Assembly (NCBI GenBank): GCA_948874605.1
Contig: CAQRXS010000044.1
Coordinates: 1 to 9,659 of the forward strand
Source of the DNA: an uncultured Bacilli bacterium
Lineage (GTDB): Bacteria > Bacillota_I > Bacilli_A > RF39 > UBA660
Reading direction: 5' to 3'
Length of the DNA stretch: 9,659 bases
A model generated the notes under the pieces. The model had not been told where the DNA came from. It saw only the letters and a list, made by a program, of their open reading frames with translations, and searched no databases. The first letter of the stretch is position 1; each line of letters begins with the position of its first letter. The translations under genes and the position numbers were made by a program. Shown piece after piece: positions 7,144-9,659 of this stretch.

Positions 7144-8850
7144 TTAATTTAAAGGTGCTAAAATGACACGAAACCCAGAGTTTGCGTAGGCTAATCCGTA
7201 TTCACGACCAAACGCAAATACTCCGTTCTCCGAACCATGTTGGTACGCATTGCCACGAACAAACCAAGGACTTCCTGGTTCCACAAAGAACGCTTGATCA
7301 GCATACCAGGAACTTATTTGTCTACCTGTTCGATTTCCATAAGAAGCACTTTGAAATGGACCTATCTCTCCTGTGGCATCTCCCAAGATTCTTCTTGTAT
7401 ATTCTGAATAACTTGTTCCATAGTTATATTTATCGTAATATTTTTCTTCGGGCCAGCTATAGCCAGAAGTCAAAGTACCGCTTTCTCCATAATTTCCAAT
7501 AAATCCTGAATTGTAAGTTGCATTTCTTCCGCTTAATGGTTCGCCATTTTGATCTACCATCACACCCATGACATATTCAGAAGCGCAACCGCTCATATCA
7601 TAAATTCCAGTGATATTGCCTGTAGTACTTGCTAGTACTCCAGTTTCAGTATTATAAGGTTTCGTTATATCTTTTGTTGTTCCATATTTGTTACAATCAC
7701 GATTATCATTTGTTAAGCCGCATGTTGGTTCATTCACACTTGCATAGCCCGTTAATAGTTCAGAATTATTGTTGAATCTCACACTTACTTGTGAACCATA
7801 TTTAGAATGTTGAAGATATGCTACAGACCCCCACTCCGTATTCTTCATCATGTGACTATCTAAGTTTCTTTTATATTCATAACTTGTATAAAATGCATTA
7901 CTAACATTTATATTTCTCCAACTACTTACATTTGGTTTGATTTGTACTCCTGTCGGGTTTATTGAGTTGTCCGAATTATCATTTCCTTTACTTGTTTCAA
8001 ATTTTCCTACCCAAAAACCTGTGCTTGGAATACTTAAGAAAGCAGGATGAGTCATATAGTCTCCTTCTTTACAATTACCAATGTTGCCTGAAGTCATTGG
8101 GGTTGTACATTCTCCACTTACAGAATCAGTTGTATTATAATCACCGAATATCACTGGTATTTCATGTACTTTACTCTCATCAATTTCTCTTAGTTCAGTA
8201 TAATTCTCTAAGTTCCATAACTGATAACGATACTTTGGTATCCATACAAAATAGGATTCAATATACTTTTCTTCTATCACTTCTTCATTTTGATATTCTT
8301 TTGCATCACTCGTTAATATTACTGCATTTGCCCATTCCTTATCCTCATACTTATACCACTCTGTTTTTGTATCAGCTTTATGTACAGTTCCTTTAGCATC
8401 TATGATAACTGGGATAAGCTCATCCTTTATTACTGGATCCATTCCATTTAATATAGGTTCACTATACTCTTCTTTTTCTTTAAAATAGAAATTACATCTC
8501 GTTTTACTTTTTCCTTCTATTTTATAATTACTATAATCTATCACTGCAGTCCAGTTCTCATAGTCCCATGAGATTTTTACTCCATTATTACAATTTGATC
8601 TTTCATCTAAAGTATACCCACTACCTTTCTTTGGCATTTCTAGTGATATTTCGTTATCAATATAATATGCAAAATATAAGTCTCCTGGATTTTCAACACT
8701 TCCACTTACCACATTAAAGTTATCTTTGGCTTCAAACAAAGCATAGGATTGATACAATAATACTCCTCCTATTAATAGGATACAAACAATTGTAAAAATT
8801 ATAATTTGATTCTTTCTCTTATTTTTTTCTTGAAACTTTTTTAGACACAT
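7144..8850 (-). CDS. Membrane-anchored surface protein with FGE-sulfatase/C-type-lectin-like C-terminal domain
   Basis: 568 residues from ATG 8850, which follows GGTGA by 7 nt. A basic N-terminus (KKFQEKNKRKN) precedes one hydrophobic helix (about 14-37) ending LLYQSYALFEAKDNFNVVSG, reminiscent of TasA/SipW-dependent secreted proteins; the rest is probably outside the cell. A first domain (about 38-126) has two cysteines (87, 119) that could pair. WYKYEDKEWANAV (165-177) and YFVWIPKYRYQLW (200-212) introduce a SUMF1/FGE-like domain running to the end, with GIYDMSGCASEYVMG (415-429), RRILGDATGE (486-495), SPWFVRG and a terminal SGFRVIL. FGE catalytic cysteines are absent near the end, so a binding role is more likely than an enzymatic one; this is inference. 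It is about three-quarters identical to the next gene except in the last 50 or so residues. A TTG start at 8910 would translate the promoter's poly-G tract and has no ribosome binding site. Confidence 0.8.
   Translation of the reverse strand: MCLKKFQEKNKRKNQIIIFTIVCILLIGGVLLYQSYALFEAKDNFNVVSGSVENPGDLYFAYYIDNEISLEMPKKGSGYTLDERSNCNNGVKISWDYENWTAVIDYSNYKIEGKSKTRCNFYFKEKEEYSEPILNGMDPVIKDELIPVIIDAKGTVHKADTKTEWYKYEDKEWANAVILTSDAKEYQNEEVIEEKYIESYFVWIPKYRYQLWNLENYTELREIDESKVHEIPVIFGDYNTTDSVSGECTTPMTSGNIGNCKEGDYMTHPAFLSIPSTGFWVGKFETSKGNDNSDNSINPTGVQIKPNVSSWRNINVSNAFYTSYEYKRNLDSHMMKNTEWGSVAYLQHSKYGSQVSVRFNNNSELLTGYASVNEPTCGLTNDNRDCNKYGTTKDITKPYNTETGVLASTTGNITGIYDMSGCASEYVMGVMVDQNGEPLSGRNATYNSGFIGNYGESGTLTSGYSWPEEKYYDKYNYGTSYSEYTRRILGDATGEIGPFQSASYGNRTGRQISSWYADQAFFVEPGSPWFVRGNAYQHGSENGVFAFGREYGLAYANSGFRVILAPLN
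7147..7308 (-). other. Hypervariable, GC-rich C-terminal coding segment of the complete surface protein
   Basis: Codes the last 54 residues, from WYADQAFF to the end. By hand count it is about 45-50% GC over most of its length, against roughly 27-35% in much of the gene before it, and uses GCG, TCG and GGG codons rare elsewhere. The frame SPWFVRG, GVFAFG and GFRVIL is kept in the paralogue, while the residues between change. This pattern resembles the variable region of C-type-lectin targets of diversity-generating retroelements. Confidence 0.5.
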
Positions 8851-8853
8851 GCA

Positions 8854-8883
8854 AAAATCACCATAGCTTCCTATGATGATTTT
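8854..8883 (-). promoter_or_regulatory. 5'-UTR hairpin covering the ribosome binding site of the surface-protein gene
   Basis: On the minus strand AAAATCATCATAG (8883-8871), loop GAAG, then CTATGGTGATTTT (8866-8854): a 13-bp stem with one G-U wobble. The 3' arm contains GGTGA, the ribosome binding site 7 nt before ATG 8850. It could mask translation in transcripts that read through from the upstream gene. Because five U follow the stem's core, it could also be a weak terminator for that upstream gene. Confidence 0.55.
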
Positions 8884-8910
8884 ATCATATACCCCCCCCC
8901 CTAAAGTCAA
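8884..8910 (-). promoter_or_regulatory. Candidate phase-variable promoter with a poly-G spacer
   Basis: TTGACT (8910-8905) and TATGAT (8889-8884), each five of six against consensus, are separated by 15 nt: TTA, ten G, TA. The -35 begins 6 nt after the upstream gene's stop codon. The spacer is 2 nt shorter than the 17-nt optimum, so this copy should be weak; gain of one or two G would bring it to 16 or 17. GATAAA (8886-8881), 18 nt from the -35, is a poorer alternative. The predicted start is near 8877. Confidence 0.65.
8892..8901 (-). repeat. Homopolymer (G)10 tract
   Basis: Ten consecutive C on the plus strand (G on the coding strand of the flanking genes), intergenic, inside a promoter spacer. 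No other G/C run near this length is seen in this AT-rich window. Runs of this kind change length by slipped-strand mispairing. Confidence 0.95.
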
Positions 8911-8916
8911 GGATTT

Positions 8917-9659
8917 TTATGGCATAAGAACAATGCGGAAAGTTACATCTGGCCCTAAGGAACCAGCAGCATAGCCAAACGCAAACACTCCCGCCTCTGA
9001 ACCAGCGAAAAACGCTTCTCCACGAATAAACCAAGAACGCGTAGGATGCACAAAGTACGAATTGTTGGCATACCAAGAATTTATTTGTCTTCCTGTTTGA
9101 CTTCCATAAGTTATGCTTTGAAAAGGTCCCATTTCTCCTGTAGCATCTCCAAGTATTCTCCTTGTATATTCTGAAGAGTCAGCTCCATATTGATATTTAT
9201 CATAGTATTTCTCTTCAGGCCAACTATATCCTGAATCTAATGATCCACCTTCTCCAAAGTTTCCTACAAATCCTGAATTATAAGTTGCATTTCTTCCACT
9301 TAATGGGTTACCATTTTGATCTGTCATAATTCCCATAACATACTCCCATGAGCCACCACTCATATCATAAATTCCTGTTATATTTCCAGTTGTACTAGCA
9401 AGTACTCCAGTCTCTGTATTATAAGGCTCTGTTATATCACTAGAGGTTCCATATTTATTACAAACTTCATTGGTTGCTGTATAGCCACATGTAGGTTCAT
9501 TTACACTAGCATATCCTGTTATAAAGTCAGAGTTGTTGTTGATTCTTACACTTGTTTCGGAACCATATTTACTATGTTGTAGATATGCTACTGCTCCCCA
9601 TTCGGTATTCTTCATCATATGACTATCCAAATTACGATTATAGTAATAACTTGTATAGA
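8917..9659 (-). CDS. Paralogous surface protein with FGE-sulfatase/C-type-lectin-like domain, C-terminal part (start outside the window)
   Basis: The reading frame is open to the window edge (246 codons visible plus stop); residues before the internal LDSHMMK continue in frame (YTSYYYNRN), so a start at TTG 9630 is not credible. The visible part matches the C-terminal half of the neighbouring downstream gene at about three residues in four by hand count, including NTEWGAVAYLQHSKYGS, GIYDMSGGSWEYVMG, NATYNSGF, YSWPEEKYYDKY and YTRRILGDATGEMGPFQS. GGSWEYVMG is closer to the FGE-domain GNVWEW-type motif than the neighbour's GCASEYVMG. The last 52 residues diverge to about one in two. The stop is 6 nt from the -35 of the next gene's promoter. 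Likely a secreted or membrane-anchored binding protein; the N-terminus is not visible, so the anchor is inferred from the paralogue. Confidence 0.78.
   Translation of the reverse strand, partial: YTSYYYNRNLDSHMMKNTEWGAVAYLQHSKYGSETSVRINNNSDFITGYASVNEPTCGYTATNEVCNKYGTSSDITEPYNTETGVLASTTGNITGIYDMSGGSWEYVMGIMTDQNGNPLSGRNATYNSGFVGNFGEGGSLDSGYSWPEEKYYDKYQYGADSSEYTRRILGDATGEMGPFQSITYGSQTGRQINSWYANNSYFVHPTRSWFIRGEAFFAGSEAGVFAFGYAAGSLGPDVTFRIVLMP
8920..9075 (-). other. Hypervariable, GC-rich C-terminal coding segment of the second surface protein
   Basis: Codes the last 52 residues, from WYANNSYF to the end. By hand count 8941-9060 is about 50% GC, while 9061-9300 is about 32-40%. The constant frame (SWFIRG, SEAGVFAFG, TFRIVL) is shared with the neighbouring gene, but most intervening residues differ. 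Codons of the constant frame also differ at silent sites, so the two segments are not recent copies of one template. Confidence 0.5.

Follow-up and report, generated by a model that had tools for sequence, protein, structure and literature searches.

A poly-G promoter spacer as a putative slippage switch ahead of a predicted surface-lectin gene in an uncultured Bacilli bacterium and its relatives

Slippage in a promoter spacer is known from a few pathogen genes; the spacers of the neisserial porA-type promoters are about 16–18 nt long, and vlp of Mycoplasma hyorhinis has a poly-A promoter tract. In the porA, opc and fetA genes of Neisseria meningitidis, an unstable homopolymer located between the -35 and -10 elements is thought to alter the binding of the sigma factor (PMC2791445), and GAA repeats have been described for vlhA of M. 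gallisepticum (PMC6258824). Surface-protein phase variation has been tracked by metagenome reads in an uncultured mycoplasma, Candidatus Mycoplasma girerdii (PMC5476646), and G10–G11 tracts have been reported to slip in gut Bifidobacterium, in vivo too (PMC9187656). Exact-word searches of one open-access library, none of which paired terms for diversity-generating retroelements (DGRs) with phase variation, listed no recognised description of poly-G promoters in the clade considered here.

Promoter element in the window

The element is located on the minus strand of the window (the whole analysed stretch of DNA, 9,659 nt), between two paralogous surface-protein genes, and consists of the following parts.

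8917..9657, minus strand: upstream paralogous surface-protein gene, an ORF with a DGR-like 3' end, its 5' end lying beyond the window
8905..8910, minus strand: -35 element TTGACT, from direct reading; TTGAC stands at the matching module position in relatives
8892..8901, minus strand: (G)10 tract within the promoter spacer, from direct reading and shuffling; 8–13 G in the 174 listed sites of the nearest genus
8884..8889, minus strand: TATGAT, the -10 of an earlier, sequence-only reading (spacer 15 nt), present in the window, its register not conserved
8879..8887, minus strand: extended -10 TGATAAAAT (TG-A-TAAAAT); TGnTAnnnT in 28 of 34 sites that were collected without a -10 criterion
8870..8873, minus strand: predicted transcription start region, placed from the -10 (four starts, 8873–8870, were folded)
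7144..8850, minus strand: controlled gene of a 568-aa protein, with a predicted N-terminal helix and a predicted C-terminal C-type-lectin fold

Direct reading of the minus strand confirmed that TTGACT, a spacer bearing (G)10 and TATGAT precede the gene of a presumably membrane-anchored surface protein, as the sequence-only reading had described. The order is TTGACT (8910–8905), TTA, G10 (8901–8892), TA, TATGATAAAAT, a hairpin and, at 8850, the start codon (ATG) of the 568-aa ORF, 41 nt past the G tract; in the register of that reading, the spacer is 8904–8890 (TTA + G10 + TA), followed by TATGAT at 8889–8884. A homopolymer of at least 8 nt between a recognisable -35 and -10, one of the marks of porA/opc-type promoters, is present in the window. 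G10 is the sole run of at least 8 G or C in its 9,659 bases, and 200 dinucleotide shuffles gave 0.01 matches on average, none of them reaching the observed number. The promoter is absent from the list of a consensus scan that permits only spacers of 16–18 nt. The gap between the stop codon of the paralogue and the -35 is 6 nt.

Recurrence in relatives and the choice of the -10

The search with the controlled protein yielded 560 loci, the best 80 of which were kept; they are mostly titled uncultured Bacilli, Tenericutes or Erysipelotrichaceae, with some Candidatus Ventrenecus. Together with the window (81 sequences, 764,263 bases) they contain 22 runs of at least 7 G, and TTGAC was found by manual reading no more than 8 bases upstream of 14 of these. 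Among the 43 listed runs of at least 9 G in three genomes (G008, G009, G010), TTGAC upstream and TGnTAnnnT downstream were present at 14; TTGCT replaces TTGAC at L169 and L180, with the -10 unchanged and the hairpin present, and about 23 of the remaining 27 runs lie, also by manual reading, near the starts of surface-type frames. The module TTGAC-polyG-TGnTAnnnT occurs in 28 of the 36 nearest-genus genomes, with up to 45 copies in one genome. At wider ranks, it was found in 33 of 288 genomes for the order, 6 of 395 for the class and 3 of 392 for the phylum; the positives of the last two samples had already turned up in that of the order. None of the four samples contained the reversed pattern, and a poly-C control (C8 for G8) gave 0 in the 36 nearest-genus genomes. 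Homopolymers are error-prone and the length of 10 is as assembled, but the 33 positive genomes of the order and the empty reversed control make a sequencing or assembly artefact scarcely credible.

An N-terminal hydrophobic or membrane segment is encoded downstream of 78 of 88 promoters, against 166 of 429 control ORFs, and of 66 of 75 when the loci picked by surface-protein homology are left aside. Since the relatives place the poly-G promoter ahead of many surface-protein genes, it looks like an inbuilt stutter switch by which the set of surface proteins produced is varied. The phosphatase gene adjoining the window surface gene has 80–86% identity in four genus members tried, which places the window in or near the nearest genus; it was not found in G001, the fifth member tried.

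A scan of viral contigs returned six stretches matching the module pattern, which sit among 114 sites and were excluded from the counts of -10 elements, hairpins, downstream genes, open frames and gene-start tracts. The genus member G008, without a match to the promoter pattern, has nine poly-G tracts (L181–L189), mostly near the starts of surface-protein-like frames. At L159:2014–2082 (G009:C33), two tandem TTGACAAT-polyG copies (G17 and G10) stand ahead of a cytosine-methyltransferase-like gene, possibly a phase-variable methylation system. In G068, the genes behind two poly-G promoters (L214, L215) are presumably a sigma-factor-like gene and an AMP-binding-enzyme-like gene.

The module searches required TGnTAnnnT downstream of the tract and were, therefore, unable to test which -10 is right. 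The two readings were compared at 34 TTGAC-G8 sites (the window being one) in loci that had been picked without regard to a -10, and TGnTAnnnT was within reach in 28 of them, against 818 of 20,000 random positions. The six other sites comprise two that look like coding tracts (L087, L178), two with a -10-like hexamer without TG (L089, L167), and the two repeats ahead of the methyltransferase-like gene of L159. In the 28 sites, the TATGAT register is mostly occupied by TGTGAT or CATGAT, with A2 and T6 kept in 6, and the exact TATGAT is found in the window alone. TGATAAAAT at 8887–8879 (spacer 20), which overlaps TATGAT, is the better conserved of the two -10 readings; an extended -10 can weaken the dependence on the -35. 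The sequence-only reading had combined TATGAT as the -10 with a 15-nt spacer and (G)11–12 as the "on" state. Since relatives conserve TGATAAAAT, 5 nt downstream of TATGAT, the spacer with (G)10 measures 20 nt instead of 15 nt; at this length, loss rather than gain of G should bring the spacing nearer to the 17-nt peak of ordinary promoters and should raise the promoter activity, so that the proposed direction is reversed. That exact model, although TTGACT and TATGAT each match the consensus at 5 of 6 positions and stand 15 nt apart, is improbable.

The spacer is 20 nt in 112 and 19–21 nt in 158 of the 174 genus sites listed of 274 counted, with tracts of 8–13 G, whereas ordinary TTGACW promoters (86 loci, 783 kb) have a spacer peak at 17 nt (36 of 83). 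One of the latter lies in the window, ahead of a short ORF that presumably resembles ribosomal protein L28:

2755..2783, plus strand: comparator ordinary promoter, TTGACT-17 nt-TAAAAT with TGn

In the listed genus sites, the spacer stays at 20 nt also in promoters whose tract is shifted, by up to 5 nt, against the -35; the commonest total of the flanks before and after the tract occurs as 0+10, 1+9, 2+8, 3+7, 4+6 and 5+5. The two flank lengths compensate each other (r -0.59 over 54 genome-architectures; p 0.016 by within-genome permutation, through which alone kinship is handled). Between the G length and the length of the remaining spacer, the relation is weakly negative in the genus rows (Spearman -0.20, p 0.03, 120 flank types; within-genome permutation p 0.016), and there is no correlation over 162 rows of mixed origin (r -0.05), the latter counting against compensation across clades. 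Outside the genus, the spacers of G024 and G068 centre on 15–17 nt, and those of G232 and G012 are 19–21 nt, with two exceptions in G232.

In the E. coli libraries, expression is described as high at spacers of 15–19 nt and lower beyond (PMC8695583). The torsion model (PMC9303308), as computed here, gives a penalty of 5.0 kT at 20, 2.4 at 19, 0.6 at 18 and 0 at 17 nt, the value at 20 nt being an extrapolation past the 15–19 nt of its use; on this view, 20 nt would be a length at which one G matters. The clustering at 20 nt would also suit a fixed geometry with no slippage switch, in which the over-long promoter is aligned by a DNA-untwisting MerR-like activator or by an unusual poly-G helix, the spacer of the MerR-controlled mer promoter being 19 nt (PMC9303308). 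Interrupted tracts, presumably non-slipping, have spacers of 19–21 nt in 12 of 14 among the matches listed, and the positional orthologue of the window gene (L267:3901–3961, G051:C11), which has the same kind of hairpin, combines a AAAAGGGGG tract, five G in a row, with a 19-nt spacer, so that 20 nt could be the active length itself. However, a tract that slides by up to 5 nt against the -35 does not fit well with a protein that occupies one fixed position, tract length differs between copies with identical flanks, no pure long G run is needed for such a geometry, and poly-G is also present in gene starts of the related genomes; the fixed geometry is, on balance, unlikely.

Of 19 same-genome promoter sets with identical flanks, 11 show more than one tract length. 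This is a variation between paralogous copies, and some copies located at contig ends may represent a single locus that was assembled in duplicate. Apart from promoters, 19 poly-G tracts lie ahead of long frames; 11 are resolvable, 2 in frame and 9 out of frame, and one of the 11 belongs to a MutS-like gene, not a surface gene. Such gene-start tracts agree with a translational switch, in which slippage would shift the frame of an extended protein, and the window frame is indeed open from TTG 8910 through the tract, as it is in 11 of 56 comparable promoters. However, the frame is closed between the tract and the start in 45 of the 56, and the conserved parts are the promoter hexamers and the hairpin, which leaves the translational switch a very slight chance. 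The proposal of the sequence-only reading, a slippage-driven promoter of one of two variable surface proteins, loses TATGAT as its -10 and keeps its tract-length-sensitive design, strongly supported by comparison through the recurrence ahead of membrane-segment genes, the 11 of 19 sets and the 9 of 11 gene-start tracts out of frame; the slippage itself is putative.

The hairpin and the controlled gene

The -10 overlaps the beginning of a stable stem.

8854..8883, minus strand: 13-bp hairpin with a GAAG loop, starting at the second base of the -10, with a U run at 8857–8853
8857..8862, minus strand: Shine-Dalgarno-like GGTGAT within the 3' arm of the stem, from the sequence

The window hairpin has a folding energy of -20.3 kcal/mol (z -5.84). 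A similar one, defined by an energy below -8, at least 8 pairs and a stem reaching the -10 or the next base, was found in 43 of 92 distinct promoters, 49 being without it. The alignment of 15 segments picked for equal length (the window and 14 from relatives, several from one genome) pairs in 97.9% of the cells, and pairing falls to 34–65% with partners slid by one to three columns. Two-sided changes affect 6 of the 13 pairs, a number reached by 4 of 500 shuffles, and 18 cells, against 5.4 in the shuffles, 0 of 500 reaching 18. In RNA read through from upstream, the predicted unpaired probability is 0.00 for the ribosome site and 0.01 for the ATG; in RNA from the predicted start, it is 0.53 and 0.83, respectively. 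The gene start lies at least 100 nt past the tract in 12 of 42 hairpin sites, and hiding of the ribosome site, therefore, cannot be general, while termination by the hairpin could be.

The distance to the upstream stop has a median of 41 nt at hairpin sites (29 sites) and 116 nt at sites without a hairpin (31 sites; p 3e-4), and a T run meets the stem end in most of the 43 hairpin promoters, as would be expected of a plain terminator of the upstream gene with no insulating role. Of the features of an intrinsic terminator, the window has the stem, with its z of -5.84, and a U run, but this stem is rich in A+U, it takes in the U run, and the consensus scan did not report it. In the window, the hairpin includes part of the -10, and the ribosome site and start codon are paired in it, a placement unneeded for plain termination; a role as terminator only is less likely than not. 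The terminator and insulator roles are not mutually exclusive.

The controlled gene ends in a segment resembling those of DGR targets:

7147..7290, minus strand: hypervariable 3' end like a DGR variable region, limits approximate, from the pattern of fixed and variable residues in 57 segments found by one motif

The predicted fold of the controlled protein matches the DGR variable proteins, the C-type-lectin fold included, in a list of matches where absence of a family does not exclude that family. A first structure model (18 sequences) was poor, with pLDDT 48, and was set aside. No Pfam or NCBIfam families were matched by either surface protein of the window. The predicted helix and lectin fold, along with the 78 of 88 membrane segments, suggest that the controlled protein may be located at the surface and antigenic.

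DGR genes are present in relatives. Avd-like ORFs adjoin members of the family in two loci, L002 and L004, the former of which also has the reverse-transcriptase motif. In one relative of the family, 8 of 10 template/variable differences are at A, and 24 other printed pairs are without such a bias. Three other loci of the genus (L275, L276 and L277, in G002:C86, G005:C47 and G678:C4) encode a reverse transcriptase with IGNxxSQ and YMDD, and their template and variable repeats differ at A in 20 of 20, 18 of 18 and 16 of 17 cases, respectively. No repeat pair was found in three more loci of the genus. The first four reverse-transcriptase loci gave two YSDD frames and one YADD frame, all without the DGR motif, which at the fourth (L269) lies in a separate, broken frame.

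In L274:286–4160 (G005:C89), a poly-G promoter, a surface gene and DGR genes stand in one row on the contig. At L004:7885, a G8 tract lies within a small MutS-like ORF, between the surface gene and the Avd-like and RT-like genes, and the DGR activity itself may be phase-variable there.

Proposed mechanism and comparison with known systems

The architecture, the recurrence, the clustering at 20 nt against 17 nt, the hairpin covariation and the fold energies are best explained, with good probability, by a slippage-tuned sigmaA-type promoter with a 20-nt spacer and a hairpin that would block read-through. Points against this explanation are the 19–21-nt spacers of interrupted tracts and the 19-nt spacer of the G051 orthologue, the possibly weaker dependence on the -35 with an extended -10, the 49 of 92 promoters without the hairpin, the spacers of G024 and G068, centred on 15–17 nt, and the confinement of the length variation to paralogous copies. 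The G tract between TTGACT and TGATAAAAT would set the spacer, now at 20 nt, and gain or loss of G at replication would shift it along a steeply sloping part of the curve that relates activity to spacing (towards 17–19 nt and a stronger promoter with fewer G, towards a weaker one with more G), so that cells of one population would make differing amounts of the surface lectin. The complete hairpin would be confined to read-through transcripts of the upstream gene, in which it would terminate transcription and hide the ribosome site, while RNA begun at the poly-G promoter would escape, since it is without the 5' arm.

The DGR-like fold and the DGR genes of relatives suggest that one and the same repertoire may be subject both to the switching of expression and to targeted hypermutation. 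Such a two-layer device in uncultured gut Bacilli is tentative, its chances being somewhat below even. In it, the choice of the lectins to be displayed would lie with dozens of poly-G promoters that are proof against read-through, each kept at a 20-nt spacer at which a single G means a large change of activity, and DGRs would diversify the binding faces of proteins of that class by mutation. If both act on the same lectins, the bacteria would have exceptionally ample means of varying their contacts with hosts, neighbours or phages. The design of spacer slippage appears here genome-wide, in uncultured small-genome bacteria; its 20-nt set-point is unexpected, and through the hairpin, expression would depend on the switch and on nothing else.

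In comparison with the known systems, the predicted C-type-lectin fold and the hypervariable C-terminus of the controlled protein resemble those of the DGR variable proteins TaqVP, TvpA and Mtd; unlike in the DGR systems, the 9.7-kb window is without a DGR reverse-transcriptase motif, and template repeats were found in relatives only. The Mycoplasma vlp and vlhA genes similarly have repeat-length control of a surface-protein family, but their repeats are A tracts or GAA units, whereas here G lies within the spacer. In Candidatus Mycoplasma girerdii, the repeats are mostly dinucleotides read as frame changes, with no promoter named in the available portion of the account (PMC5476646). The sortase-pilus tracts of Bifidobacterium breve share the slipping G10–G11 in a gut commensal but are intragenic and translational, at two loci (PMC9187656), and their closer parallel is the poly-G in gene starts of the present genomes. 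The porA, opc and fetA promoters have in common with the present one the homopolymer between the -35 and -10, and differ from it in that here there are up to 45 promoters per genome, with a spacer centred on 20 nt, an extended -10 and, in 43 of 92, a hairpin from the -10. By analogy, the poly-G promoter may work like the neisserial poly-G/poly-C promoters.
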